DNA of 64,000 bases from Geminicoccus roseus DSM 18922 (GTDB lineage Bacteria; Pseudomonadota; Alphaproteobacteria; Geminicoccales; Geminicoccaceae). The notes under the pieces were generated by a model. That model did not search any database, was not told where the DNA came from, and worked only from the letters and a program-made list of their open reading frames with translations. The stretch covers positions 2,938,196-3,002,195 of the forward strand of contig NZ_KE386572.1 of NCBI RefSeq assembly GCF_000427665.1, written 5' to 3'. Within the stretch, counting starts at the first letter, position 1. Each line of letters starts with the position of its first letter. Shown one piece after another: positions 73 to 36,606 of this stretch. A program made the translations under genes and the position numbers.

Positions 73-1788
73 ATGGTCGAGCGACCCTTGCCCCTGCGGC
101 GCGAGCCGCGCCTGAACGCCATGACGGTCGTGCTCGGCCTGGCCGTGGCGGTGCTCCTGGTGATCGTCGTCTATCCGCTGCTCTGGCTCCTGCTGGCGGC
201 GTTCGGCCTGCCGAACGAGTTCGGCCTCAGCCATTTCGTGCGGGCCTATGCCCGCTCGCAGAACGTGCAGCCGCTGGTCAACACGATCATCCTGGCCATC
301 GGCGCCGGGTTCTTCAGCGTGGTGCTGGGAGTGCCGCTGGCCTGGGCCACCGCCTGCACCGACATGCCGCTGCGCAAGACGGTGCGGGCCTGCGTGGCGC
401 TGTCCTACATCACGCCGCCCTATCTCACCGCACTGGCCTTCATCATCCTGATGGGGCCGGACGCCGGCTACCTGAACCGGCTGGTGCGCCTGGTGATCGA
501 CGTGCCGAGCGGCCCGTTCAACGTGTTCGGCATGACCGGGATCATCCTGGTGATCAGCCTGCACGTGTTCGCCTTCACCTATTTCCTGACCGAGGCCGCG
601 CTGAAATCGGTGGACGCCTCGCTGGAGGAGGCGGCGCAGATGCTGGGCGCGCGCCGCTGGACCACGGTGGTCCGCATCAACCTGCCGCTGGTCGCACCCG
701 CCATCACCGGCGGCGCGTTGCTGGCGGCGGTGGAATCGCTGGCGCTGTTCGGGCCGCAATCCTTTCTCGGCACGCCGGCGCAGATCAGCTTCCTGCCGAC
801 CCGGATCTACGGCGTGATCAGCAGCTACCCGCCGCGCTGGGGCGAGGCGGCCGCCCTGTCGCTGATCCTGATCCTTTTGACCTGCATCGGCTTGCTGATC
901 CAGCGCAGCTACCTGCAGCGGCGCTCCTACGTCACCATCGGCGGCAAGGGCGGGCGGCAGCGCCCGGCCAGGCTGGGGGCCTGGAAATGGCCGCTGCTGG
1001 GCTTGTGCCTGCTGATCGTGTTCTTCAGCGCGATCGCGCCGGTGGGCGTGCTGGTGCTGGCCTCGTTCAGCGACAGCTGGGTGGCGCCGCTGAGTTCCGC
1101 CAACTTCACGCTCCGCCACTTCCAGTCCGCATTGCTGGAGGACCAGATGGCGGTGCGCGGCATCTGGAACAGCTTCCGGCTGGCCACCGCGGCCGGGCTG
1201 ATCGCGGTCGTGATCGGCGCCGCCATCGCCTATATCGACCTGCGCACCCGGGTCACCGGCCGCAGGCTCCTGGACTACCTGGCCCTGCTGCCGCTGGGCC
1301 TGCCCGGCACGGTGATGGCGATCGGCCTGCTCTTGGCCTTCATCCGCCCGCCTTTGGTGCTCTACGGGACGATCTGGATCCTGCTGGTCGCCTATGTGGC
1401 GAGGTTCATTCCGCTGGCGACCCGCAGCGTCAACAGCTCGCTGCGCCAGCTGGAGCCCTCCCTGGAGGAGGCCGCGCGGATCACCGGCGCCACCTGGATG
1501 CAGTCGATCCGGCTGATCCTCCTGCCGCTGGTCCGCCCAGGCCTGGTGGTGGCGTTCCTGCTGGTGTTCATCCCGGCGTTCGCCGAGCTCAGCGCCACCG
1601 TCCTGCTCTACTCCAGCGGCACCGAGACGATCTCCATCGCGATCTTCCGCCTGAACGATCTCGGCCAGCTCGAGGTGGTGTCGGCCCTGTCGGTGTTCAC
1701 CATCGCGGTCGTGCTGATCGTGAGCCTCGGCCTGAACTGGTACTCCGCGCGGCTGCCCAAGCGCCGCCAGGCGCTGCCCAAGGACTGA
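73..1788 (+). CDS. ABC transporter permease, Fe(III)/thiamine/AEP type, fused double permease
   Basis: Inner-membrane permease of a binding-protein-dependent importer in the FbpB/ThiP class, in which two six-helix permease domains are fused in one 571-residue chain. Both halves carry the EAA loop that docks onto the ATPase (EEAAQMLGARRW near residue 185 and EEAARITGATWM near residue 465), and hydrophobic segments fill residues 17-45, 68-95, 105-127, 155-175 and the mirror set after 305. The ATPase gene follows after 9 nt, so the two form an operon; the periplasmic binding protein would lie before the window. Fe3+, thiamine and 2-aminoethylphosphonate importers all look like this, and the adjacent sulfatase makes an organic ester or phosphonate ligand as plausible as iron. 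The frame stays open to the window edge, so the start could lie further upstream. Confidence 0.9.
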   Translation: MVERPLPLRREPRLNAMTVVLGLAVAVLLVIVVYPLLWLLLAAFGLPNEFGLSHFVRAYARSQNVQPLVNTIILAIGAGFFSVVLGVPLAWATACTDMPLRKTVRACVALSYITPPYLTALAFIILMGPDAGYLNRLVRLVIDVPSGPFNVFGMTGIILVISLHVFAFTYFLTEAALKSVDASLEEAAQMLGARRWTTVVRINLPLVAPAITGGALLAAVESLALFGPQSFLGTPAQISFLPTRIYGVISSYPPRWGEAAALSLILILLTCIGLLIQRSYLQRRSYVTIGGKGGRQRPARLGAWKWPLLGLCLLIVFFSAIAPVGVLVLASFSDSWVAPLSSANFTLRHFQSALLEDQMAVRGIWNSFRLATAAGLIAVVIGAAIAYIDLRTRVTGRRLLDYLALLPLGLPGTVMAIGLLLAFIRPPLVLYGTIWILLVAYVARFIPLATRSVNSSLRQLEPSLEEAARITGATWMQSIRLILLPLVRPGLVVAFLLVFIPAFAELSATVLLYSSGTETISIAIFRLNDLGQLEVVSALSVFTIAVVLIVSLGLNWYSARLPKRRQALPKD

Positions 1789-1797
1789 AACGAAACC

Positions 1798-2907
1798 ATG
1801 GCGTTCATCGAGATCAGCCGCCTCACCAAGCGGTTCGGCGCGTACACCGCGGTCAACGACGTCAGCCTGGCGGTCGAGGAGCAGAAATTCGTGACCCTGC
1901 TGGGCCCGTCCGGCTGCGGCAAGACCACGACGCTGCGCCTGCTTGCCGGTTTCCTGGAGCCGGACGAGGGCACCATCGCGGTGGGCGGCCGGATCCTGTC
2001 CCAGGCGCGCGACATCGTCCTGCCGGAGAACCGGCGGATGGGGATGGTGTTCCAGAACTATGCGGTCTGGCCGCATCTCTCCTTGTTCGACAATGTCGCG
2101 TTCGGGCTGCAGCTCAAGAAGCTGGCCAGGCGGGAGATCGACGAGCGGGTCCGCCAGGTCCTGTCGGTGGTCGGCCTGGAGGGGCTGGAGGACCGCTTTC
2201 CAAGCGAGCTCAGCGGCGGGCAGCAGCAGCGCGTGGCGCTGGCCCGCTCGCTGGTGGTGGAGCCGTCCATCCTGCTGCTCGACGAGCCGCTCTCCAACCT
2301 GGACGCCAAGCTGCGCGAGCACATGCGCACCGAGCTGAAGGCCCTGCAGCGGCGCACCGCGATCACCTTCGTCTACGTCACCCACGACCAGGCCGAGGCC
2401 ATGGCGCTCTCCGACATGGTCGCGGTGTTCAACCGGGGCGAACTGCAGCAGCTGGGCACGCCCCGGGAGATCTACGACCGGCCGGCCAACCTGTTCGTCG
2501 CCGACTTCATGGGCTCGACCAACATGCTGGAAGGAAAGGTCGCCGAGCACGGCCCGGACGGGCTGCTCGTCCAGGCCGGACGGCTGACGCTGCGGGCGCA
2601 GCCAGGTCCCCGCGTGAACCCGTCCGGCCGGGTCACCCTGGTGGTGCGGCCGGAGGCGGTGCGGCTGGGCGAGGACGCGGTCCGCGACGCGGCCCCAGGA
2701 GCGGCCGACGGCGCGGCCAACCGGTTCGAGGCGACGATCACCGACGCGACCTTCCTGGGCAACCTGGTCGAGTACGTCGTCGACATCGCCGGGACCACGC
2801 TCAAGGCGCAGTGCCAGCCCCATCTCCACCACCCGGTCGGCTCCATTGTGCCGCTTTCGATCCCGGTCGCGGCCTGCACCGCCATGGCGACCGAAACCCC
2901 CGCCTGA
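1798..2907 (+). CDS. ABC transporter ATP-binding protein (FbpC/PotA/UgpC class)
   Basis: The 369-residue cytoplasmic ATPase partner of the preceding permease. The Walker A motif GPSGCGKT is at residues 36-43, the Q-loop at MVFQNYAVWP (83-92), the ABC signature LSGGQQQR at 138-145 and the Walker B ILLLDEP near 158-164, followed by the switch histidine in YVTHDQAEA. After residue about 240 there is a C-terminal TOBE-type beta domain, typical of the iron, polyamine, sugar and phosphonate subfamily. It starts at the ATG 9 nt after the permease stop and ends 43 nt before the sulfatase start. The ATPase does not fix the substrate. Confidence 0.92.
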   Translation: MAFIEISRLTKRFGAYTAVNDVSLAVEEQKFVTLLGPSGCGKTTTLRLLAGFLEPDEGTIAVGGRILSQARDIVLPENRRMGMVFQNYAVWPHLSLFDNVAFGLQLKKLARREIDERVRQVLSVVGLEGLEDRFPSELSGGQQQRVALARSLVVEPSILLLDEPLSNLDAKLREHMRTELKALQRRTAITFVYVTHDQAEAMALSDMVAVFNRGELQQLGTPREIYDRPANLFVADFMGSTNMLEGKVAEHGPDGLLVQAGRLTLRAQPGPRVNPSGRVTLVVRPEAVRLGEDAVRDAAPGAADGAANRFEATITDATFLGNLVEYVVDIAGTTLKAQCQPHLHHPVGSIVPLSIPVAACTAMATETPA

Positions 2908-2950
2908 ACCCCGTCAGCCCGGCATACCGCCAGTCACTCAGGAAGCGATC

Positions 2951-4399
2951 ATGAGGAAACCCAACGTCCTGGTCATCATGTCGGACGAGCACGGCCGCGG
3001 CATGTCCGGCGCCTATGGCAACCGCGTCATCCAAACACCCCATCTCGACCGGCTGGCCGAACAGGGCACCCTGTTCGAGAACGCCTACTGCAACTCGCCG
3101 ATCTGCGTGCCGAGCCGCGCCAGCTTCGTCACCGGCCGTCATGTCCACGAGATCGGCACCTGGGACAACGCGATCCCCTATACCGGCACGCCCCGCTCCT
3201 TCGGCCACGAGATGCAGGATGGCGGCTATCGCTGCGACTCGATCGGCAAGCTGCATTTCCGCTCCAGCGAGGATCCCAACGGCTTTCAGAACGAGATCCT
3301 GCCGCTGCACGTGCTGGACGGGGAGGGCGACGTGCAGGGCATGCTGCGCAGCCCGCCCATGCCGCGCAAGAGCACCCAGGACCTGGCCGGCGACGCGGGC
3401 GAGGGCGATTCCACCTACCTGGACTATGACCGGCGGATCACCGAGCGCAGCGTGCAGTGGCTGGCGGAGGCGGCCGGCCAGCCGGAGCAGCCCTGGTGCC
3501 TGTACGTGTCGCTGGTCTGCCCGCATTTCCCGCTGGTGGCGCCGCCGGAGTTCTTCCGGATGTACCCGCTGGACAGCCTGCCGATGCCGGACCTGCGCGA
3601 CCCGTCCGACTTCCCCGACCACCCGGTCCTGCGCAAGCTGCGCGAGGTCCAGGATTATGAGGACTATTTCCGCGACGAGACCCATGTCCGCACGGCGATC
3701 GCCGCCTATTACGGCATGGTGTCGTTCCTGGACGACAATATCGGCAAGATCCTGGCGGCGCTGGACGCTAATGGCCAGGCGGGCAACACCACCGTGGTCT
3801 ACACCAGCGACCATGGCGACAATCTCGGCCGGCGGACCTTCTGGGGAAAGTCCAACATGTACGAGGAGGCCGCCGGGGTGCCGATGCTGATGCGGGGCCC
3901 GGGGGTCGAGGCGGGCAAAAGGGTGGCGACGCCGGTCTCGCTGGTCGACGTCCATGCCACCATCATGGACGTCACCGGGATCCGGCCGAAGGCGGACAAG
4001 GAACTGCCGGGCCGTTCGCTGCGGGCGATCGCGGAGGGCGCCGACCCGGACCGGACCGTGTTCAGCGAGTACCATGCGGTGGGGGCCATGACCGGCATGT
4101 TCATGGTCCGGTTCGGCCGCTTCAAGCTGGTTCATTACGAGGGCTACGCGCCGCAGCTGTTCGACCTGGAGGCCGATCCGGGCGAGACGAACGACCTGGC
4201 GGGTTCGCCTGAACATGCCGATGCGCTGGCCGAGGGCCAGCGGCGGCTGCGCGCGATCTGCGACCCGGCGGAGGTGACCAGGCGGGCGTTCGCCGACCAG
4301 CAGAAGCGGATCTTGGACCTGGGGGGCGAGGAGGCGATCCGCAACCGGCCCACCTATCCCTACACCCCCGCACCCGGGGAGGCGCCGCGCTACTCCTGA
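2951..4399 (+). CDS. Sulfatase-family hydrolase (Cys-type, formylglycine)
   Basis: Alkaline-phosphatase-fold sulfatase of 482 residues that would hydrolyse a sulfate ester. It opens with the metal-binding strand MRKPNVLVIMSDEHGRG (D12) and contains the maturation motif C-x-P-x-R as CVPSR at residues 52-56, whose Cys is converted to formylglycine by a modifying enzyme. A TSDHGD metal motif lies near residue 283. I chose the ATG preceded by AGGAAG; an upstream in-frame start at 2846 would overlap the ATPase gene and adds a non-homologous 35-residue tail. There is no signal peptide, so it is cytoplasmic and would act on imported substrate, which fits its place 43 nt behind the ABC importer. Choline-sulfatase-like, glycan and phosphonate monoester hydrolase members share these motifs, so the substrate is open. 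Confidence 0.88.
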   Translation: MRKPNVLVIMSDEHGRGMSGAYGNRVIQTPHLDRLAEQGTLFENAYCNSPICVPSRASFVTGRHVHEIGTWDNAIPYTGTPRSFGHEMQDGGYRCDSIGKLHFRSSEDPNGFQNEILPLHVLDGEGDVQGMLRSPPMPRKSTQDLAGDAGEGDSTYLDYDRRITERSVQWLAEAAGQPEQPWCLYVSLVCPHFPLVAPPEFFRMYPLDSLPMPDLRDPSDFPDHPVLRKLREVQDYEDYFRDETHVRTAIAAYYGMVSFLDDNIGKILAALDANGQAGNTTVVYTSDHGDNLGRRTFWGKSNMYEEAAGVPMLMRGPGVEAGKRVATPVSLVDVHATIMDVTGIRPKADKELPGRSLRAIAEGADPDRTVFSEYHAVGAMTGMFMVRFGRFKLVHYEGYAPQLFDLEADPGETNDLAGSPEHADALAEGQRRLRAICDPAEVTRRAFADQQKRILDLGGEEAIRNRPTYPYTPAPGEAPRYS

Positions 4400-4442: not shown

Positions 4443-5591
4443 TCACTTCAGGAGGACCGGGCCGGCGTCGATCGGGATGCGGAACAGGCTGTAGGGCTTC
4501 TCGCGCAGGTCCTGGCCCTCGTGGAACTGGGCCTGGCGGTGCAGCTGGTTGGCGGTGACGTAGAGATGACCGTCGCCTGCCACCGACAGCGTGTCCGGCC
4601 AGAGCAGGCGCGGGTCGTGGACGAGCGTCTCCCAGGTGCCGTCCGGGTCGCGCCGGTGGATGGCGTTGTTCTCGTAGTCGGTGGCGTAGACGCGGCCCTG
4701 CGCATCCGATTCCAGGCCGTCGGAGGCGCCCTTCTCGCCCAGGTCGGTGACGGCCTGGGCCAGCGTTTCTTCGGAAGCCTGCCGGTCGCGCAGCAGGTCG
4801 GTCGGCACCGAGTAGAGGTGGCGGCTGGAGAGCGGGCTGTAATAAAGGGTGGCGCCATCGGCGGAGAGGGCGATGCCATCCGAGGCGACCCGGAAGGGCT
4901 GGGGCGGCTGGCCCGGCTGGCGGATCGCCAGGCGCTGGCCCTCGACCACCCCCACGAAATCCGGGTCGGGGCTGGTGGAGGGATGGCCGCTCAGCTTGCG
5001 CCAGGCTTCGCCGGTCTGGAGGTCGACCACGATGATGCCGCCCGGGCCGTTGGTCGAAGAATCGGTGATGTAGGCGATGCCGGCCTCGCCTTCGGTCAGG
5101 TCGAAGCGCACGTCGTTCAGGTAGGTCGTGTCCAGGACCACGTCGGGCGGCAGGACGATGGTCTGCGCCACCTGGTTGGTTGCCAGGTCGACCGCCACCA
5201 GCTTGGCGGCGCCGTCCAGGGGCTCGGCGAAGGACGGTGCCGCGGTGTCGAGCAGCCAGAGCCGGCCGGCCGGGCCCACCACCACGCTCTGCACGCTGCT
5301 CAGGGTCTCCGCCGGGCGATCCGGGTCGAAGACGTTGGTGGCGGCGTCGGGGAAGGGCCGGACCTCGCCGTCGCGCAGCTCGCCCACGGTGAACGGCACC
5401 GCGTCGCCCCAGCGCGGGAAGTTGACGAAGATCCGGCCGTCGGCCGCGACGGTGACGCCGGTCGGCATGGCGTCCCGGAAGGCGAAGACCGGCTCCAGCT
5501 GGCCGATGGCCTTCTCGGACGGCAGCGGTTCGGCCAGGGCCGGGGCGCCCAGCGGCGCCAGAAGGGTGCAGGCCAGCAGCAGGTGGCGCAT
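4443..5591 (-). CDS. Secreted major royal jelly/yellow-family protein (L-dopachrome tautomerase-related)
   Basis: A 382-residue exported protein with a signal peptide (MRHLLLACTLLAPLGAPALA, then EPLPSEK) and a predicted beta-propeller resembling the MRJP/yellow family; recognisable family-like stretches include MPTGVTVAADGRIFVNFP, LWLLDTAAP, YLNDVRFD, YITDSS and DGIALSADGATLYYSPL. Bacterial members are often named L-dopachrome tautomerase-related, but their reaction is generally unknown; a lactonase-like or ligand-binding role is possible. The start at 5591 is preferred because GAGGA lies 9 nt upstream; an ATG at 5606 is the alternative. It converges on the sulfatase gene and sits downstream of the enolase-superfamily gene. 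Confidence 0.8.
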   Translation of the reverse strand: MRHLLLACTLLAPLGAPALAEPLPSEKAIGQLEPVFAFRDAMPTGVTVAADGRIFVNFPRWGDAVPFTVGELRDGEVRPFPDAATNVFDPDRPAETLSSVQSVVVGPAGRLWLLDTAAPSFAEPLDGAAKLVAVDLATNQVAQTIVLPPDVVLDTTYLNDVRFDLTEGEAGIAYITDSSTNGPGGIIVVDLQTGEAWRKLSGHPSTSPDPDFVGVVEGQRLAIRQPGQPPQPFRVASDGIALSADGATLYYSPLSSRHLYSVPTDLLRDRQASEETLAQAVTDLGEKGASDGLESDAQGRVYATDYENNAIHRRDPDGTWETLVHDPRLLWPDTLSVAGDGHLYVTANQLHRQAQFHEGQDLREKPYSLFRIPIDAGPVLLK

Positions 5592-5763
5592 GGCAGGGGT
5601 CCTCATCGCAGGCTCTTTGGCGGGGTCAACGGCCATGCAGGGCATGGGTTGCCCAGGCCGTCCCCGGGCCGCGTGCCCAGGGTGCCCGTTCGCCAACCAG
5701 ACGATGATCGCCACCCAGCGCGCGCGGTTCTTGAACAGAACCCGCCTGGCATGAAGGCGCCGA

Positions 5764-5802: not shown

Positions 5803-6963
5803 CTATTCGATCACCAGGCGGTCGGCGCTGTTCTTCCGGATGAAGTCCCAGTCATAGCTCACCCCCAGGCCCGGGCCGGTCGGGACCGGGAAGCAGCCGT
5901 CCTTGCCGACATCCTCGGGCTCGTCCGAGTAGCCGCAGGTATAGATCGGCGGCTTGGGGTTGCCGATCTTGGGCGCGCACAAGGCGAGCTCGTAATAGTT
6001 GGTGTTGCGCATCGCCGCCATGCAGTGGCGCTGGGTGGGGCCGGCGCCGTGCATCTCGGCATCCAGGCCGAACGCCTCGGCCAGGTGGACCATCTTCATG
6101 GCGCCGGTGATGCCCATGTCCAGGGTCGGGTTGACCCGGACATAGTCGGTGGCCTCGGCGGCGATCATGTCGGCCTTGGCCTCCAGCCCGCGGACATGCT
6201 CGCCCATCAGGATCGGGGTCTTCAGCATCTGGCGGAGCTTCTTGTGCGCATGGCGGGAATAGCCGCCGTCGCGATAGGGATCCTCGTACCAGAAGAACTT
6301 CGCCTCGTCGCAGGCGCGCCCGACATAGAGCGCATCGCCGAAGGTCTTGAGCTCGCAGGCCGGGTCCAGCATCAGGTCCATGCGGTCGCCGACCCGCTCG
6401 GCCACGTGCAGGACGTTGGCGGCCTCCTCGCGGCGGTCGGCGTCGGTCCAGCCATGGATCTTGAAGGCGCGGAAGCCCAGCTCGTAGCAATACTCGGCAT
6501 AGTCGCCGAACGCTTCCTTGGAAGAGAGGCCGCCGTTGCGGTCGCCGTGGAAGGTGCTGGCATAGGTCGGCAGGCGCTCGCGGAAGCCGCCCAGCAGCCG
6601 GGAGACCGGCACGCCGTAGCGCTTGCCGGCCATGTCCCAAAGGGCGATGTCGAGATCGGCATAGCCCAGGCCCCAGGTCTTGCGCTGGGCGCGCTTGCAG
6701 TCGTCGTACATCTTCTCGCGGCTGTCGGCGTCGCGGCCGATCAGCATCTTGGCCAGGTACTTGGCCTGGGCGAGCAGGGTGGCGTCGTGGTTGATGTTGA
6801 CCCACTCGCCGACGCAGCCCTCGCTGTCGGTGATCGTCACCGCGTAGCCGGTGCGGGTGATCCGGCCGCCGGGCGTGTAGGTGGCGTTCATGCTGTGGTC
6901 GACCGTCAATCCCTCGATCGGGAAGGTGAAGGTCTCGAACTCGATCCGCTGGATGGTCGGCAC
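5803..6963 (-). CDS. Mandelate racemase/muconate lactonizing enzyme family protein (enolase superfamily) 1
   Basis: A 386-residue acid-sugar enzyme, probably a dehydratase or epimerase acting by abstracting the proton alpha to a carboxylate. The capping domain is at about 1-125 and the barrel at 130-370. Visible catalytic positions: K168 in FKIHGW at the end of the second barrel strand with His in place of the second Lys of the usual K-x-K, metal ligands D200 (LMLDPA), E227 (WYEDP) and E255 (MGEH), and candidate acid/base H305 (EMHGAGP). It starts with GTG at 6963, with GAGGA about 10 nt upstream. It is the last gene of the minus-strand operon after the binding protein, paralog 2 and two permeases, so its substrate is probably what that importer brings in. 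The specific acid sugar cannot be read from sequence. Confidence 0.88.
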   Translation of the reverse strand: MPTIQRIEFETFTFPIEGLTVDHSMNATYTPGGRITRTGYAVTITDSEGCVGEWVNINHDATLLAQAKYLAKMLIGRDADSREKMYDDCKRAQRKTWGLGYADLDIALWDMAGKRYGVPVSRLLGGFRERLPTYASTFHGDRNGGLSSKEAFGDYAEYCYELGFRAFKIHGWTDADRREEAANVLHVAERVGDRMDLMLDPACELKTFGDALYVGRACDEAKFFWYEDPYRDGGYSRHAHKKLRQMLKTPILMGEHVRGLEAKADMIAAEATDYVRVNPTLDMGITGAMKMVHLAEAFGLDAEMHGAGPTQRHCMAAMRNTNYYELALCAPKIGNPKPPIYTCGYSDEPEDVGKDGCFPVPTGPGLGVSYDWDFIRKNSADRLVIE

Positions 6964-6997
6964 GTTCGGCAGGTCCTCAGGTTTTATCGGGAAAGGG

Positions 6998-7846
6998 TCA
7001 GCCCTTGACGGCGCCGGTGGTGAGCCCGCTCACCAGCACGCGCTGGATGAAGGCGAACAGGACGACGACGGGGATGATGCTGATGACGCCGCCGGCGGCG
7101 AGCATCCCCCAGGGCAGCTGGAATTCGCCGATCATCAGCTGCAGCCCGACCGGCCAGGTGCGCGAGCCCTGGCTGGTGGTGAGCATCAGGGCGAACAGGA
7201 ACTCGTTCCACGCACCGATCGCCACGAACACGGTGGTGGCGACCAGGCCGTTGCGCGCCAGCGGCAGGACGATGCGGACCATGGCCCCCAGCCGGGTGCA
7301 GCCATCGATCCGCGCGGCCTCCTCCAAATCGTCGGGCAGGGCGTCGAAGAAGCCCTTCATGATCCAGACGAACAGCGGCAAGAGGAAGCTGGAATAGGCA
7401 AGCGCCAGGCCGAAGCTGCTGTCGAGCAGGCTGAGGGAGCGCATGATGATGAACAGCGGGATGATCTTCACCACGGCCGGGAACATCCGCACCACCAGCA
7501 GGCCCAGCAGCATCTGGTTGCGGCCGGGGAAGCGGAAGCGCGAGAAGGCGTAGGCGCCGAGGCTGCCGGCCACCAGGCAGATCGCGATGGTCATCAGCGT
7601 GGTCTTGGCGCTGTTGAACACCAGCACCGAGAAGCCCGACTGCCACCAGATGTTGGTGTAGTTGTCGAAGGTGATCTGGTCCGGCCAGTACTTGACCCCG
7701 AGGGCGGTGACGATCTCGTTCTCGGGCTTCACCGAGGTCAGCACCAGCCAGACCAGCGGCAGGGTGGTGAACAGGAGGAAGGCCAGGACTGTCGCATAGG
7801 TCACGATGGTCCAGGTGCGGCGCGACTTGCGCGAGCCGACGATCAC
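6998..7846 (-). CDS. Carbohydrate ABC transporter permease, MalG/UgpE type
   Basis: A 282-residue inner-membrane permease with about six hydrophobic segments (for example IVTYATVLAFLLFTTLPLVWLVLTS near residues 12-32) and the EAA loop LEEAARIDGCTRLGAMVRIVLP in the C-terminal third. It starts with a GTG whose last bases overlap the TGA of the MalF-type gene (GTGA, 4-nt overlap), indicating translational coupling. Partner of the next permease and of the binding protein at 9973-11220. The ATPase is not in this operon and could be a shared MsmK/UgpC-type subunit elsewhere. Confidence 0.92.
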   Translation of the reverse strand: MIVGSRKSRRTWTIVTYATVLAFLLFTTLPLVWLVLTSVKPENEIVTALGVKYWPDQITFDNYTNIWWQSGFSVLVFNSAKTTLMTIAICLVAGSLGAYAFSRFRFPGRNQMLLGLLVVRMFPAVVKIIPLFIIMRSLSLLDSSFGLALAYSSFLLPLFVWIMKGFFDALPDDLEEAARIDGCTRLGAMVRIVLPLARNGLVATTVFVAIGAWNEFLFALMLTTSQGSRTWPVGLQLMIGEFQLPWGMLAAGGVISIIPVVVLFAFIQRVLVSGLTTGAVKG

Positions 7847-8808
7847 GAGTTGGCCATGATGTTGGAGGCCCGCACGTAGAGGTAGCAGAACAGCATCAGC
7901 AGCAGCAGCATCACCACCGAGAGTGCTCCGGCATAGCCGAAGTCGAAGGCCCGGTACGCGGTCTGGAAGGCGTAGAGCGAGAGGACCATGGTGGTGTTGG
8001 CGGGACCGCCATTGGTCAGGATCAGCAGGAGGTCCGGCGAGTTCACGATTGAGATCACCCGCAGCACGACGGCGGCCACGATCACCATCTTCAGCATCGG
8101 CAGGGTGACGTGCCAGAACCGGCCGGCCACCGTGGCGCCGTCCACCGCGGCGGACTGGTGCAGTTCCTCCGGCACGCCTTTCAGCGCCGCCAGGAGCAAG
8201 AGGGTGAAGAACGGGAAGCCGTGCCAGGCCTCGACCACCACCGCGGCGCCGAGTGCCGTGGACGGATCGGCGAACCAGGCCTTGTAGCTCTCCAGCAGGC
8301 CGACCCGGACCAGGATGTCGTTGATCACCCCCAGGCGCGGATCCAGCATCAGCGCCCACATGTTGCCGGCCACGACGTTGGGCAGGAACCAGGGCAGCAG
8401 GATGATCACGCCCATCCAGCGCAGGCCCGGCAGGCGCTGGTTGAGCGCCAGCGCGCTGGCCAAGCCCAAGGACAGCTCCAGCGCGATGGCGAGCGTGGTG
8501 TAGGTGACGGTGTTCTTGACCGAGATCCAGAACGTGCCGTCCTGGAGGATCGCGGCGTAGTGCTTCAGCCCGACAAAGCCGGTGCCCAGGCCCGGCCGGG
8601 TCAGGCGCATCTCGCGGAAGCTGAGCGAGATCCCGTAGATGGTCGGGTAGATCACGATCAGCGCCACGATCACCACGCAGGGCAGCAACAGGAACCAGGC
8701 CCAGTGGCGGCTTTCGGAGAACTCCGCGATCCGGGTGAACGGGTTCAGCCGGTCGAGGGCGGGGGCGCCGCCGCCCGGCCCGCCCCGGTTCCAGTTGCGC
8801 GTGGCCAT
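7843..8808 (-). CDS. Carbohydrate ABC transporter permease, MalF/UgpA type
   Basis: A 321-residue permease with a typical long first helix (WAWFLLLPCVVIVALIVIYPTIYGISLSF), periplasmic loop and the EAA loop HQSAAVDGATVAGRFWHVTLP. The start at 8808 (MATRNWNRG) is preferred because AGCGGA precedes it and it lies just past the stop of the upstream gene; a start at 8847 would extend it into that gene. It couples to the MalG-type gene by a GTGA overlap and is placed between the two enolase-superfamily genes. Confidence 0.9.
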   Translation of the reverse strand: MATRNWNRGGPGGGAPALDRLNPFTRIAEFSESRHWAWFLLLPCVVIVALIVIYPTIYGISLSFREMRLTRPGLGTGFVGLKHYAAILQDGTFWISVKNTVTYTTLAIALELSLGLASALALNQRLPGLRWMGVIILLPWFLPNVVAGNMWALMLDPRLGVINDILVRVGLLESYKAWFADPSTALGAAVVVEAWHGFPFFTLLLLAALKGVPEELHQSAAVDGATVAGRFWHVTLPMLKMVIVAAVVLRVISIVNSPDLLLILTNGGPANTTMVLSLYAFQTAYRAFDFGYAGALSVVMLLLLMLFCYLYVRASNIMANS

Positions 8809-8815
8809 GATCCGC

Positions 8816-9922
8816 TCACACGCTGGCCAGCGCGGTGCGCTGGACATGATCCCAGTCGAAATCCTCGCCCAGGCCCGGCTGGTCGGAAACGGTCAGGTAG
8901 CCGTCCACCACCGAGAGCGCGCGCTGGTCGTCGAGCTGGTCGATCTGCCCGGTGCCCATGACCAGCTGCTCGTAATAGTCGTTGTTGCGCATGGCGGCGC
9001 AGATCTGCGCGTTGGGCAGGCCCATGCCATGCACCTGGCAGCGCATCCCGAAGCTGTCGGACAGGTGGGCGACCTTCATGGCGCCGGTGATGCCGCCCTT
9101 GAAGAACCAGCTGGTGCGGGTCATGTCGAGCGCGCCCATCTGGATCCAGGTCGCCATGTTCCAGTGGCAGCCGTCCGGGGTCTCCGCGGCCAGGACCGGC
9201 ACGTCGAGCGCGTCGCACAGCTTCTTGTAGGAGCCCAGCTCGAACTCGCGCATCGGCTCCTCGTACCAGAGGAAGTTGCACTCCTCCATGACGCGGCCGA
9301 ACTTGAGCGAGGTGACATAGTCCCAGCCGGCCGAGCCGTCGAACATCAGGTCGGCGTCGTCGCCGGTCCATTTGCGCAGGTTGCGCGAGAGCTTCGCGTC
9401 CTCCTTGGGATCGCCCCAGGCATGCAGCTTGAACGCGGTGAACCCCTTGTCCATGCAGTGTTTGATGTGGCGCTCGTACTCGTCCATCGTGTCCCAGGTG
9501 ACCGTGGACGCATAGACCGGGACCTTGCGGTCGTTGCCGCCCAGCATCTGGTAGACCGGCATCCCGGCCTTCTTGCTCTTGATGTCCCACAGGATGCAGT
9601 CGAGGATCCCTAGGTGCCGCACCGGGATCTCCTCGACCCGGTCGATCTCCCAGACCAGCCACCACAGGCGCTCGGTGAGCAGCGGGTCCTGGCCGACCAG
9701 CGTCTTCAGGCGCCGCTCGACCAGGCTCATCACCGACGGGCCCTGCGGGACGCGCATCGCCCCGTAGATGCCCTCGTCGGTATCCACCCGGATGATCGCC
9801 TCCAGGGGCTTCTTGTCCAGGGCGGTGCCGTCGCCGGAGCCGGCCAGGCCCTTGCGCCAGGCGAACGGCCAGCGCGGGTGCTCGCCTTCGACCAGCCAGC
9901 AGCGGATGTCGGTGATCTTCAT
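8816..9922 (-). CDS. Mandelate racemase/muconate lactonizing enzyme family protein (enolase superfamily) 2
   Basis: A 368-residue paralog of the enzyme at 5803-6963, with the same unusual active-site set: K165 in FKLHAW with His two residues on, D195 (LMFDGS), E221 (WYEEP), E247 (AAETPD) and H298 (QVHGMGL). The paralogs diverge strongly outside these motifs, so they probably do successive or parallel steps on related acid sugars rather than the same step. It is preceded by the binding-protein gene (50 nt gap) and followed by the permeases, an interleaved enzyme-transporter order. Dehydratase is the likeliest activity; epimerase or lactonase activity cannot be excluded. Confidence 0.88.
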   Translation of the reverse strand: MKITDIRCWLVEGEHPRWPFAWRKGLAGSGDGTALDKKPLEAIIRVDTDEGIYGAMRVPQGPSVMSLVERRLKTLVGQDPLLTERLWWLVWEIDRVEEIPVRHLGILDCILWDIKSKKAGMPVYQMLGGNDRKVPVYASTVTWDTMDEYERHIKHCMDKGFTAFKLHAWGDPKEDAKLSRNLRKWTGDDADLMFDGSAGWDYVTSLKFGRVMEECNFLWYEEPMREFELGSYKKLCDALDVPVLAAETPDGCHWNMATWIQMGALDMTRTSWFFKGGITGAMKVAHLSDSFGMRCQVHGMGLPNAQICAAMRNNDYYEQLVMGTGQIDQLDDQRALSVVDGYLTVSDQPGLGEDFDWDHVQRTALASV

Positions 9923-9972
9923 GGGTAGGTCCGGAAAAGAGATGCCTGGAACGGGACGAGGTTAACGAAGCC

Positions 9973-11220
9973 TCAGCTCTCCAGGCCCTGGATCATGGTG
10001 TCGACCGCCTGCTCCACGGTGGAGGAGCCGATCAGCACGCCCTGCATCGCCGGCAGGACGATGTTCTCGCGCCAGTGGTTGGAGCCGACGAAGCTGATCG
10101 GCGGCTGGCCGTTCGGCACGGTGTCGGCTGCGGCCTTGTAGATCGGGTTGTCCGCGATGCGCGGGTCCTCGGCGACCTTGGTGGATGCCGGGAAGTAGCC
10201 GGTCGCCTCCAGCATCGCGATCTCGGGATCCGCCTCGCCCCAGAACGTGATCCAGTCGAAGGCGGCATCGACCTGGGCGTCGCTCATCAGGCCGTTATAG
10301 GAGAAGGAGGTGCGGCGGTAGGACTCGACCGGGCCGGCCGGCACCTGGGCGGTCATGAACTCCTCGCCGGGCTTCAGCGCGGCGGAGATCTCGGCGAGCG
10401 AGCCGGTATGGTGCCAGATCATCCCGGTCTGGCCGGTGCGGAAGCCTTCCATGACCTGGCGGTAGCTGTCGCCGGTGACGCTGGGCGGCACCGCGTTGCG
10501 CTTGGTGGCGATGCCGGTGAAGTACCCGACCGCGTCGATCGCCGCCTGGCGGTCGATCACGCCGCGGCCGTCCTCGACCTTGATGGCGCCGAACTGCAAG
10601 AGCACCGCCAGCATGTAGTTGTCGCCGCCGGCCCCGCCGCGCATCCCGTAGCCGTAGCGGCCCTTGGACGGGTCGGTCAGCTTCTCGGCGATCTCGGCGA
10701 ACTCCTCCATGGTCTTGGGCGGCCCGTCGATGCCGGCCTCCTCGAACCAGTCCTTCCGGTAATAGATCCAGTCGACGAAGGTGAAGGCGGGGGTGCCGTA
10801 GATCTTGCCGTCGCGGGTGATCGCGTCCCAGGCGGACGGGGTGAAGTCGCCCTTCAGCTTCCAGTCGTTTACCCGGTCGGTCAGGTCGACCAGCCCGTCC
10901 ATGGCGACCAGGTCGTCGACCCGCTCGGCCTGGACCATCACCGTGTCGGGCCGGCTGCCGGTGAGCACCGCCGAGGTGACCTTGGCCATGAAGTCGTTGT
11001 TCGGGATGTTCTCCTGGACCACCGAAATCTCGGGGTGGCGCTCCTGGAACATCTGGATGACCCGCTCCAGCCCGGCGAACTCGCTCTGGCTGGTGAAGGA
11101 ATGCCAGTAGGCGATGGTGGACGCGGCCAGCGCCGGGTTTCTCCGGGCGAGCAGCCCACCGGCGGCCATCGCCGTGGCGAGCATGAGCTGGCGGCGGTTC
11201 AAGCCTGGATCGAACCTCAT
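9973..11220 (-). CDS. Sugar ABC transporter substrate-binding protein (Tat-like signal)
   Basis: A 415-residue periplasmic solute-binding protein of the family 1 (UgpB/MalE) class. The N-terminus MRFDPGLNRRQLMLATAMAA has twin arginines followed by a hydrophobic stretch ending in ALAAS, so export through Tat is likely. The mature part begins STIAYWHSFTSQSEF, typical of these binding proteins, and has LVDLTDRVNDWKL and GIPT-like binding segments. The start is fixed by GGGAGG 7 nt upstream. It is the first gene of the operon ending at 5803 and is divergent from the GntR regulator, which probably controls it through the palindrome at 11388-11405. Confidence 0.92.
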   Translation of the reverse strand: MRFDPGLNRRQLMLATAMAAGGLLARRNPALAASTIAYWHSFTSQSEFAGLERVIQMFQERHPEISVVQENIPNNDFMAKVTSAVLTGSRPDTVMVQAERVDDLVAMDGLVDLTDRVNDWKLKGDFTPSAWDAITRDGKIYGTPAFTFVDWIYYRKDWFEEAGIDGPPKTMEEFAEIAEKLTDPSKGRYGYGMRGGAGGDNYMLAVLLQFGAIKVEDGRGVIDRQAAIDAVGYFTGIATKRNAVPPSVTGDSYRQVMEGFRTGQTGMIWHHTGSLAEISAALKPGEEFMTAQVPAGPVESYRRTSFSYNGLMSDAQVDAAFDWITFWGEADPEIAMLEATGYFPASTKVAEDPRIADNPIYKAAADTVPNGQPPISFVGSNHWRENIVLPAMQGVLIGSSTVEQAVDTMIQGLES

Positions 11221-11577
11221 CTTCGGCCTCCCTGCGGGGTCTGCGCCCCGTCGGCACGTTCTGGAGGCAGCGCATGGCGGCTGCCGGGCGAACCCCGGGC
11301 CGGCGGTGCGGCGCGCGATGGTCCAACCCCTCGTGCCTTTGATGATCCCTGATCGACGGGCCGGATGCTCGCACCACATCCGCCGTCTGACAATAGTTAT
11401 TGTCACGACTGATCGGATCAGGTTGCATTGCTGAACATATCAACGGGTGCTGCCTGCGGAAAACCGGCTGCCGGATCCGGCGCGGGCGCGCTATAGCGGG
11501 CCCGGCGGAGGGCCGATGCGGCCGGCCGGGCCAGCCCTGCCGCCGATGCCGGGCGGGCCGTGCAGCGAGAGAGAAGC
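11221..11577. promoter_or_regulatory. Divergent regulatory region between importer operon and GntR gene
   Basis: A 357-nt intergenic stretch with no supportable gene. It must hold the promoters for both the minus-strand transport/dehydratase operon and the plus-strand regulator. Its only clear element is the palindrome at 11388-11405, inside a short AT-rich patch (11386-11440) in otherwise GC-rich DNA. Confidence 0.6.
11388..11405. promoter_or_regulatory. Palindromic operator, probable GntR/FCD binding site
   Basis: TGACAATA-GT-TATTGTCA: two perfect 8-bp arms around a 2-bp centre. Size and symmetry suit a dimeric GntR/FCD repressor. It lies 168 nt upstream of the transporter operon start and 172 nt upstream of the regulator start, allowing control of both. 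A lone half-site TGACAAT recurs at 12386-12392 downstream of the regulator gene. Confidence 0.65.
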
Positions 11578-12270
11578 ATGTCGTCGTCTGACCCGATCGA
11601 ACCCGCCATCCAGGAGACCGAGAAGCGCGCGGCCAAGGTCGGCCAGCTGGCCTATGAACGCTTCAAGCAGATGCTGTTCGACCAGCGCATCCCCACCGGC
11701 GCCACCATGACCCAGGCCGAGCTGATGACGCTGATGGAGGTGCCGATCGGGCCGTTGCGCGAGGCGCTGCAGATCCTGGCGAGCGAAGGCCTGGTGACCA
11801 TGCTGCCGCGCTCAGGGATCCGGATCGTGAAGCCGGACATCACGCTGATCCGCAACTGCTTCCAGCTGCGCCGGATCATCGAGTGCGAGGCGGTGCGCAA
11901 GTATGCCGACCACGCGGCCGCCACCGAGATCGAGCGCTGGCTGGCCCGCCACCAGGACGTGCTGGCGAGGACCGAGACGGTGAACGAGGACCTGATCGTC
12001 GAGGCGCACGGGCTGGACGTCGCGTTCCACACCGCCATGGTGAGCAGCCTGCGCAACCCGCTGATCGACGAGATCTATGCCCGGACCAAGGACCAGGTCC
12101 GGCTGATCCGCATGGACAATCTGTACCGGCTGTCCTGGGCGATGGTCGGCAAGACCATGAACGAGCATCTGCGGATCCTGGAGGCGGTGCGCCTGCGCGA
12201 CGGCGATGCGTCGGTGCGGGCGATGGAGGACCATCTGAGCGCGTCGCTGCAGCGGGCGATGGGGATCTGA
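11578..12270 (+). CDS. GntR family transcriptional regulator, FadR/FCD subfamily
   Basis: A 230-residue regulator with an N-terminal winged helix (about 20-90; GATMTQAELMTLMEVPIGPL is the recognition-helix region, then EALQILASEGLVTMLPRSGI) and a C-terminal all-helical FCD ligand-binding domain (about 95-225) with the usual metal-site histidines (HGLDVAFHTAM, NEHLRILEAV, DHLSASL). FCD regulators typically sense organic or sugar acids, fitting the divergent acid-sugar operon. The ATG at 11578 follows GAGAGAGAAG; the wing sequence PRSGIRI is intact. Confidence 0.9.
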   Translation: MSSSDPIEPAIQETEKRAAKVGQLAYERFKQMLFDQRIPTGATMTQAELMTLMEVPIGPLREALQILASEGLVTMLPRSGIRIVKPDITLIRNCFQLRRIIECEAVRKYADHAAATEIERWLARHQDVLARTETVNEDLIVEAHGLDVAFHTAMVSSLRNPLIDEIYARTKDQVRLIRMDNLYRLSWAMVGKTMNEHLRILEAVRLRDGDASVRAMEDHLSASLQRAMGI

Positions 12271-33630: not shown

Positions 33631-34527
33631 GTGAGGATCATCGTTCTCGGATCGGCGGCCGGCGGCGGCTTTCCCCAGTGGAACTGCCGCTGCCCGGTCT
33701 GCCGGCTGGCCTGGGCGGGCGACAAGCGGGTCACGCCCCGGACCCAGTCCGGGCTGGCGGTCAGCGCGGACGGCGAGCGGTGGATCCTGCTCAACGCTTC
33801 GCCCGACCTGCGCCAGCAGATCCTGGCGACCCCGGCGCTCCACCCGAAAACAGGCCTGCGTCACAGCCCGATCGCGGCCGTGATCCTGACCAATGGCGAG
33901 CTCGACCACATCGCCGGGCTTCTGACCCTGCGCGAGCGGCAGGCCTTCCGCCTGTACGCGACCGAGACGACCCATGCTTCGGTCAGGAGCAACGACCTGT
34001 TCCGCGCGCTCGACGAGAAGCTGGTCGAGCGCTGCCCGATGCAGCCGGGCGAACCGCTGGACCTGCCGGGCCTGCGCTTCGTTCCGTTCGTGGTGCCGGG
34101 CAAGGTGCCGCTCTACCAGGAAAGCGGCGACGTCGCGCTGGGCGAGGAGACCGAGCATGTGCTGGGGCTGGAGATCATCGCGGACGGCCAGCGCTGCCTC
34201 TATGTGCCGAACTGCGCCCGGATCACGCCGGAACTGCGCGAGCGGCTGGCGGGAGCCGACCTCCTGTTCTTCGACGGCACCACCTTCACCGACGACGAGA
34301 TGGTCCGCCACGGCCTCTCGCCCAAGACCGCGGCGCGGATGGGGCATCTCGCCATGGACGGGCCCGACGGCTCGATCGCGGGCCTGGCCGGCCTCCCGCT
34401 CGGACGGCGGGTCTTCCTTCACCTGAACAACAGCAACCCGGCCCTGGTCGAGGGTTCAGCCGAGCGGCTGCAGGTGGCCGCCGCCGGCTGGGAGCTGGCG
34501 CATGACGGCATGGAGTTCACGCTTTGA
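33631..34527 (+). CDS. pqqB: PQQ biosynthesis protein PqqB
   Basis: A 298-residue metallo-beta-lactamase-fold protein. It starts with GTG and the hallmark MRIIVLGSAAGGGFPQWNCRC; the zinc Cys are C19, C21 and C24 in WNCRCPVC and the altered MBL motif is TNGELDHIAGL. PqqB hydroxylates the Tyr of the PqqA-derived dipeptide. The stop overlaps the pqqC start (TTGA). Confidence 0.95.
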   Translation: MRIIVLGSAAGGGFPQWNCRCPVCRLAWAGDKRVTPRTQSGLAVSADGERWILLNASPDLRQQILATPALHPKTGLRHSPIAAVILTNGELDHIAGLLTLRERQAFRLYATETTHASVRSNDLFRALDEKLVERCPMQPGEPLDLPGLRFVPFVVPGKVPLYQESGDVALGEETEHVLGLEIIADGQRCLYVPNCARITPELRERLAGADLLFFDGTTFTDDEMVRHGLSPKTAARMGHLAMDGPDGSIAGLAGLPLGRRVFLHLNNSNPALVEGSAERLQVAAAGWELAHDGMEFTL

Positions 34528-35252
34528 CCGAACGGCTGGGACGCGGGGAACTGGAGGCCGCGCTGCGGCAGGTCGGCGCCGAGCGCTACCATCACCTGCA
34601 CCCGTTCCACCAGCGGCTGCACGGTGGTGCCTGCAGCCGCGGCGAGGTGCAGGCCTGGGCGCTCAACCGCTACTATTACCAGTCGATGATCCCGGTCAAA
34701 GACGCGGCCGTGCTCGGGCAGATGCGCGATCCGGCGCTGCGGCGGGCCTGGCGGCAGCGGATCGTCGACCATGACGGCGACCGGGACGGCGAGGGCGGCA
34801 TCGCCCGCTGGCTGGCGCTGACCGACGGGGTCGGGCTCGACCGCGACCTGGTGGTGTCCACCCGCGCCGTCCTGCCGACCACCCGGTTCGCGGTCGAGGC
34901 CTATGTCGCGTTCTGCCGGGACCGGACGCTGCTGGAAGCGATCGCGTCCTCGCTGACCGAACTGTTCTCGCCGCAGATCATCGGCGAGCGGATCGCCGGG
35001 ATGCTGGCCCATTACGACTTCGTCGACCAGGGCGTGCTGGCCTATTTCACCGCCCGCCCGCCCCAGGCCGAGCGGGACAGCGCCTTTGCGCTGGCCTACG
35101 TGCTGGAGCATGCGGTCACGCCGGAGACGCAGGCGGCCGCGCTGGCGGCCTTAAGCTTCAAGACCGAGGTGCTGTGGGCGCAGCTCGACGGGTTGTGGAT
35201 GGCCTATGTGGAAGGCCGCCCGCCGCCGGGCGCGTGGAGGCCAGCACCATGA
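34524..35252 (+). CDS. pqqC: Pyrroloquinoline-quinone synthase PqqC
   Basis: A 242-residue cofactorless oxidase that catalyses the last ring closure and eight-electron oxidation to PQQ. The helical bundle motifs [35 protein letters not shown] and HYDFV..GVLAYF are typical. It uses a TTG start that overlaps the pqqB TGA; its own TGA overlaps the pqqD ATG. Confidence 0.95.
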
Positions 35253-35530
35253 GCCACGCGATCCCAAACGACGCCCGCCCGCGTTTGCCGCGCGGGGTGC
35301 GGCTGCGCCAGGACAAGGCGCGGAACTGCTGGCTCCTGCTGGCGCCGGAAACCCTGTTCGAGCTGAACCAGAGTTCGGTGGAGATCCTGCGGCGATGCAC
35401 CGGCGAGCAGAGCTTCGCCCAGATCGTGGACGAGCTGGCCCAGAGCTTCGGCGTGGACCGGATGCGAGTCGAACAGGACAGCCAGGCCCTGCTCGGCCAG
35501 CTGCTGGCCAAGCGGTTGATCGACCTGTGA
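35249..35530 (+). CDS. pqqD: PQQ peptide chaperone PqqD
   Basis: A 93-residue RiPP recognition element that binds PqqA and presents it to PqqE. Motifs: [41 protein letters not shown] and [17 protein letters not shown] overlap with pqqC and GTGA overlap with pqqE. Confidence 0.95.
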
Positions 35531-36606
35531 GCATGCCGCCACCGGTCGGCCTCCTGGCCGAGCTCACCCATCGCTGCCCGCTGGGATGCCCGTATTGTTC
35601 CAACCCGCTCCGGCTGGACCAGAAGGGCGCCGAGCTGGACACCGCCGCATGGCAGCAGGTGTTCCGGCAGGCGGCGGAGCTGGGCGTGCTGCACGTCCAT
35701 CTGTCGGGCGGCGAGCCGGTGGCCAGGCCGGACCTGGCCGACCTCGTCGCCACCTGCGCAGAACAGGGCCTCTACACCAACCTGATCACCTCGGGCATCG
35801 GCCTGAGCGAGCGGCGGGTGGCGGCGATCGCGGAAGCGGGCCTGGACCATGTCCAGCTCTCGATCCAGGACGCGCTGCCGGACAGCGCCGACCGGATCGC
35901 CGGCTATAGCGGCGCGTTTGCGCGCAAGCGGGAGACCGCCCGGCTGGTGGTGGCGGCGGGCCTGCCGCTCACCGTCAACTTCGTGCTGCACCGGGCCAAC
36001 ATCGAGCGCGCCGCCGGCCTGATCGAGCTGGCGATCGAGCTTGGCGCCCGGCGGGTCGAGATCGCCCATGCCCAGTATTATGGCTGGGCGCTGGCCAACC
36101 GCGCGGCCCTACAGCCTGCGCCCGACCAGGTGCGCCGGGCGGTGGCCGAGGTCGAGCGGATGAAGGCCTCGACCGGCGGCACCATCGTGATCGACCATGT
36201 GGCCCCGGACTACCACGCAAGGTTCCCCAAGGCCTGCATGGGCGGCTGGGCCAGGCGCAGCCTGAACGTCACGCCGTCCGGCCGCGTGCTGCCCTGCCAT
36301 GCCGCCGAGACCATCCCGGGCCTGGAGTTCTGGTCGGTGGCCGAGCGCTCCCTGGCCGAGATCTGGGCGCAGTCGCCGGCCTTCAACGCGTTTCGCGGGA
36401 CCGACTGGATGCAGGAGCCCTGCCGGTCCTGCGCGCGCAAGGAGGTCGATTTCGGCGGCTGCCGCTGCCAGGCGATGGCGCTGGCGGGCGACGCCCGCGC
36501 CACCGACCCGGTCTGCGTGCTGTCCCCGCACCGGGGCCTGGTCGACGCGGCCCTGCAAGGCGAGACCGCCGGCGACGCCAGGCCGGACTATGTGTACCGG
36601 CGCTGA
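35527..36606 (+). CDS. pqqE: PqqA peptide cyclase (radical SAM) PqqE
   Basis: A 359-residue radical SAM enzyme that makes the Glu-Tyr carbon-carbon bond in PqqA. The radical SAM cluster is C17-x3-C21-x2-C24 ([10 protein letters not shown]) and SPASM-type auxiliary cysteines follow near the C-terminus ([26 protein letters not shown]). I favour the GTG at 35527, which overlaps the pqqD stop; an ATG two codons on (35533) is the alternative. A hairpin at 36618-36647 closes the operon. Confidence 0.95.

Follow-up and report, generated by a model that had tools for sequence, protein, structure and literature searches.

The run of genes at positions 5803–11220 of the window (the whole 64,000-nucleotide stretch of Geminicoccus roseus DSM 18922 DNA analysed here) combines a conserved sugar-importer cassette and its resident enzyme, MR1, with a second enzyme, MR2, that was seen in none of the other MR1 cassettes or loci. 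Both are enolase-superfamily enzymes of the MR subgroup, and both belong to a single clade that carries the motif K-x-H-x-W. Our preferred reading, held tentatively and with a little less than even confidence, is that they are two Mg-dependent sugar-acid dehydratases that would each act, in parallel, on related acids imported together, MR2 having been recruited beside MR1. The arrangement ties two branches of the clade to one binding protein, and screening that one protein against candidate ligands would be a way to test the substrate.

The five ORFs are co-directional on the minus strand and have normal coding composition. In transcription order they encode a substrate-binding protein of a carbohydrate ABC importer (9973–11220, with an ATG start at 11220), MR1 (8816–9922), permease 1 of the UgpA/MalF type (7843–8808), permease 2 of the MalG/UgpE type (6998–7846) and MR2 (5803–6963). 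A sequence-only reading of this DNA, in which MR1 was called MR-like 2 and MR2 was called MR-like 1, had described two divergent enolase-superfamily enzymes interleaved with one sugar importer. That description is confirmed by the Pfam assignments, the five ORFs and the 30% identity between MR1 and MR2 over 346 aligned positions. The intergenic spacing in transcription order is 50, 7, -4 and 34 bases. The negative value reflects an overlap (GTGA) between the permease 1 stop and the permease 2 start, a GTG read from the sequence. Because the gaps are so small, the five genes are likely to be co-transcribed. Promoter and terminator scans gave matches at chance level only.

The importer consists of an SBP_bac_1 protein and two BPD_transp_1 permeases (Pfam), which makes it a CUT1-type carbohydrate ABC system. 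The nearest solved relatives of the binding protein are sugar-binding proteins, with weak scores. Permease 1 scores below its NCBIfam cut-off and is conserved within the cassette at 56–69%. One feature that the sequence-only reading did not mention is that the operon has no ATPase gene: no UgpC/MalK-type gene occurs between 5803 and 12270. In the Kaistia cassette an ATPase gene follows permease 2, and the host genome has 28 ATPase matches that are up to 54% identical to the Kaistia protein. Divergent from the operon is a gene for a GntR/FCD regulator (11578–12270, plus strand; Pfam FCD and GntR; alternative GTG start at 11560), and the divergent regulators at other MR1 cassettes are 36–48% identical to it. 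Between this gene and the binding-protein gene is an 18-base perfect palindrome, TGACAATA-GT-TATTGTCA (11388–11405), seen in the sequence and returned by a palindrome scan. It is a candidate operator, and the motif is absent at the other MR1 cassettes.

MR1 and MR2 both exceed the Pfam gathering scores for MR_MLE_N and MR_MLE_C. The residues that had been named from the sequence (K168-I-H170, K165-L-H167, H305, H298 and the Asp-Glu-Glu ligands) are all exact in the alignment. MR1 has K165-L-H167, metal ligands D195, E221 and E247, S271, H298 and E318, and MR2 has K168-I-H170, metal ligands D200, E227 and E255, N278, H305 and E325. The Asp-Glu-Glu ligands on strands 3–5 are thus intact in both, and the two active sites differ around strand 6. 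Structure models of MR1 (pLDDT 91) and MR2 (pLDDT 89) have the same best VIA-align match, PDB entry 4hch, with Z 41.3, rmsd 2.4 and 352 aligned positions for MR1 and Z 45.0, rmsd 2.2 and 369 aligned positions for MR2. The next unrelated entry scores Z 38.1 for MR1 and Z 39.9 for MR2.

Profile searches do not assign either enzyme to a described reaction. Neither passes any curated NCBIfam equivalog cut-off, including those for the galactarate/talarate, galactonate, gluconate, mannonate, rhamnonate and arabinonate dehydratases. The best NCBIfam profile for both is NF047820 (L-talarate/galactarate dehydratase), at 91 and 114 bits (best 113.7) against a cut-off of 500. That family (PDB 2pp0) shares the MR-subgroup acid-sugar dehydratase fold with MR1 and MR2, but it has K-x-K where they have K-x-H. 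TIGR03247, the classical glucarate dehydratase profile (cut-off 828.7), does not match MR1 or MR2 at E 0.001. The host genome (5.7 Mb) is rich in MR-subgroup genes, with 20 MR_MLE_C matches, 19 of them over the cut-off.

The Lys-x-His pair had been taken to indicate special chemistry shared by the two enzymes, and this is the part of the sequence-only interpretation that we reject. In an alignment and tree of 67 MR-subgroup proteins gathered for the analysis, three groups carry K-x-H-x-W, namely the MR1 family, the MR2 family and Agrobacterium 1rvk with two relatives. They group in a single clade (support 100/100), within which the three sub-clades are each separately supported. Proteins outside the three groups, including the sampled MR-type genes of the host genome, have K-x-K, K-x-N, K-x-D or other residues. 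Judged from these sequences, Lys-x-His is unusual relative to mandelate racemase, where Lys166 takes the place of the His, but ordinary within the clade, and K-x-H-x-W reads as an ancestral signature that was inherited once. Its presence in both operon enzymes therefore cannot count as separate evidence that they share a pathway. The clade ranges over alphaproteobacteria, Chloroflexota, Planctomycetota, Streptomyces, Paenibacillus and haloarchaea. For neither the MR1 nor the MR2 branch was an assigned reaction found, and literature searches on the Lys-x-His MR family, the 1rvk/4hch protein and PhyH proteins with MR enzymes returned no functional paper. The clade is largely uncharacterised yet not unknown, as a solved member is already in the PDB.

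A second feature that the sequence-only reading had not noted concerns the His-Asp dyad. The strand-7 His of mandelate racemase is paired with an Asp on strand 6 (Asp270), an arrangement that is not universal across the MR subgroup. Mandelate racemase (1mns) has the same scaffold as MR1 and MR2, although it acts in an aromatic pathway whereas they are encoded beside a sugar importer. In the alignments both enzymes keep the His (H298, H305) and have replaced the Asp, with S271 in MR1 and N278 in MR2. For MR1 this is the family habit: the position is Asn in 11 sequences, Ser in 9, Gly in 2, Glu in 1 and never Asp. For MR2 it is not. Of the 31 sequences scored in its family, MR2 alone has Asn (codon AAC at 6130–6132, minus strand), and the remaining 30 all have Asp. 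MR2 thus resembles a natural version of D270N, a known mandelate racemase mutant (PDB 1dtn and 1mra). The whole strand-6 segment is changed, with RVNPTLDMGIT in MR2 against RADPEYDMGIT, and Asn278 is therefore not a one-base slip. Without the dyad Asp, His305 should be a poorer base but still able to serve as an acid. This would favour proton abstraction from one face by Lys168/His170 followed by elimination (dehydration) over racemisation. The Asp-to-Asn difference is also a natural test of the role of the dyad in the K-x-H-x-W clade.

MR1 is a regular part of the cassette. A GTDB genome scan with MR1 gave 19 loci, and a class sample added 2. About 17 genomes (host included), most of them alphaproteobacterial, have MR1 together with the binding protein and both permeases, and a divergent GntR gene is often present. 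In 11 of the 15 cassettes with visible upstream DNA the binding-protein gene is preceded by a gene for another MR-subgroup enzyme, of the 2oz8/Mll7089 family ("MRa"), in which the motif is K-x-K and the strand-7 His is missing. The host genome has no 2oz8-like gene above 37% identity. In two Kaistia genomes the 2oz8-like enzyme has a separate binding protein and permeases of its own, with a GntR gene beside them in one of the two. Two-enzyme operons around MR1 are therefore common, but the partner varies and is detachable, and the pairing is facultative.

The MR2 family has a different distribution. Its members are 47–60% identical to MR2 and occur in 5 of the 16 genera of the host's family, in other alphaproteobacteria and on haloarchaeal megaplasmids. 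They usually adjoin TRAP or oligopeptide-type transporters, and also other ABC transporters and GMC and SDR oxidoreductases. Three other genomes have both MR1 and MR2 genes, and no linkage between them was seen. The host has a second MR2-family gene (G000:C5:1609338-1610492; L053:8321-9487) that is 49–51% identical and has the normal dyad Asp. It is followed by genes for a DeoR-like regulator, a DUF1537-family acid-sugar kinase (SBD_N/NBD_C) and PdxA. A same-genus genome (L052) likewise has the DUF1537 kinase and PdxA genes beside an MR2-family gene. This second host locus looks like a four-carbon acid-sugar pathway, and sugar-acid settings are plausible for the MR2-family neighbourhoods.

How, then, might two such enzymes work in one operon? 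The sequence-only reading proposed consecutive or stereo-complementary steps. In the consecutive version one imported substrate would undergo, for example, epimerisation or lactone opening and then dehydration. Both genes are in the same tightly spaced operon, two-enzyme operons recur around MR1 and the two active sites differ around strand 6. However, the enzyme that usually accompanies MR1 is the 2oz8-like protein rather than MR2, and in Kaistia that protein has a complete importer cassette of its own. This weakens the idea of consecutive or stereo-complementary steps, as does the recurrence of the cassette without MR2 and the usual association of MR2 relatives with other transporters. Loss of the dyad Asp also makes a two-base 1,1-proton transfer by MR2, as in a racemase or epimerase, less likely. 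We regard consecutive action as rather unlikely, although it comes next after parallel action in our estimation. A bolder version is that MR2 is a natural D270N-like enzyme remodelled once it had entered the MR1 cassette, the two forming a relay or stereo-complementary K-x-H pair for a sugar acid that has no described pathway. This is somewhat more doubtful still.

What if both enzymes simply perform a known reaction? The Agrobacterium tumefaciens protein Atu3453/AGR_L_2751 (PDB 1rvk, 4hcd, 4hch, 4hcl and 4mmw) entered the PDB in 2003, and a 2012 entry, 4hch, is titled D-glucarate dehydratase. It is the closest solved relative of MR1 and MR2 by sequence, profile and fold, its lead over the next unrelated entry is clear for both models, and it shares with them K-x-H-x-W, the strand-7 His and the Mg ligands. 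MR1 and MR2 could thus be aldarate dehydratases of this kind in a diverged clade. Several observations do not fit well. The identity is 29–35%, too low for substrate transfer, and the three proteins represent separate sub-clades. The dyad position is Gly in 1rvk/4hch, Ser or Asn in most of the MR1 family and Asp in most of the MR2 family. The transporters differ too: a close Ensifer relative of 1rvk/4hch (L062) is encoded beside a GDSL hydrolase gene and the genes of an oligopeptide-type ABC system, unlike the importer of the MR1 cassettes. Moreover, the function of 4hch is known here from the entry title, and the literature searches found no paper. This explanation is unlikely, on a par with the relay. 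Since no curated cut-off is passed and identity to 4hch is so low, the two enzymes do not fall into a characterised cluster, the outcome that had been named as counting against the sequence-only interpretation. What stands of that interpretation is an importer-linked operon with two MR-subgroup enzymes outside the curated families. Another suggestion is that MR2 is a passenger downstream of a complete MR1 cassette, with an unrelated or vestigial role and with Asn278 as a sign of decay. The cassette is indeed complete elsewhere without MR2, and MR2 stands alone in its family in lacking the dyad Asp. Nevertheless, the ORF is intact, the metal ligands, K-x-H, strand-7 His and strand-8 Glu are all kept, and the gene is just 34 bases from a permease gene. 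The change of a whole strand-6 segment looks like functional divergence rather than decay. We consider a passenger role improbable, more so than any of the other alternatives.

The preference for parallel over consecutive action draws on gene context, and the reading as a whole falls somewhat short of an even bet. In the parallel reading, the binding protein and two permeases would import a sugar acid or a close precursor, powered by an ATPase that is encoded outside the operon, and the GntR/FCD protein would sense the imported compound. MR1 and MR2 would each bind Mg2+ through Asp-Glu-Glu. The strand-2 Lys/His pair would abstract the proton next to the carboxylate, and the strand-7 His would assist the departure of the neighbouring hydroxyl, so that 2-keto-3-deoxy acids form. 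Epimerases and cycloisomerases also occur among MR-subgroup enzymes. The two enzymes would act side by side on related stereoisomers or homologues. MR1 would be the native enzyme of the cassette, whereas MR2 would be a later recruit, drawn from a family whose other members work with different transporters, and would have lost its dyad Asp. With no gene for a kinase, aldolase or dehydrogenase, the operon itself does not indicate the fate of the product, which would presumably be catabolised further by genes elsewhere.

Some features of the surrounding DNA deserve mention. Directly downstream of MR2, within window positions 4443–5714, is a gene for an exported major-royal-jelly (MRJP)/SMP-30-like beta-propeller protein (4443–5606, minus strand; Pfam MRJP and SGL). 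The gap to MR2, read from the sequence, is about 200 bases, and membership of this gene in the operon is uncertain. Beyond it, a plus-strand run at 73–4399, convergent with the operon, encodes an ABC permease, an ATPase and a formylglycine-type sulfatase. The sulfatase (about 2951–4399) scores 320.9 bits with the choline-sulfatase profile TIGR03417, below the cut-off of 433. Sulfatases that are 35–36% identical, and below the choline-sulfatase cut-off, adjoin MR1 at two loci (L041 and L042), and a 48% identical one is near an MR2 gene at another (L048). A direct link between the sulfatase in the window and the operon was considered and rejected, as the gene follows the permease and ATPase genes of its own strand (73–2907) and converges on the operon. 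Fe/2-oxoglutarate dioxygenases of the PhyH family are repeatedly found next to MR1 cassettes and next to MR2-family genes (loci L025, L027, L030, L032, L040 and L104; L089-L091, L096, L097, L103 and L106), a hint that the two families may serve similar pathways. Farther along the window, at 33631–36606, are genes that by eye resemble pqqB and pqqC of PQQ biosynthesis.
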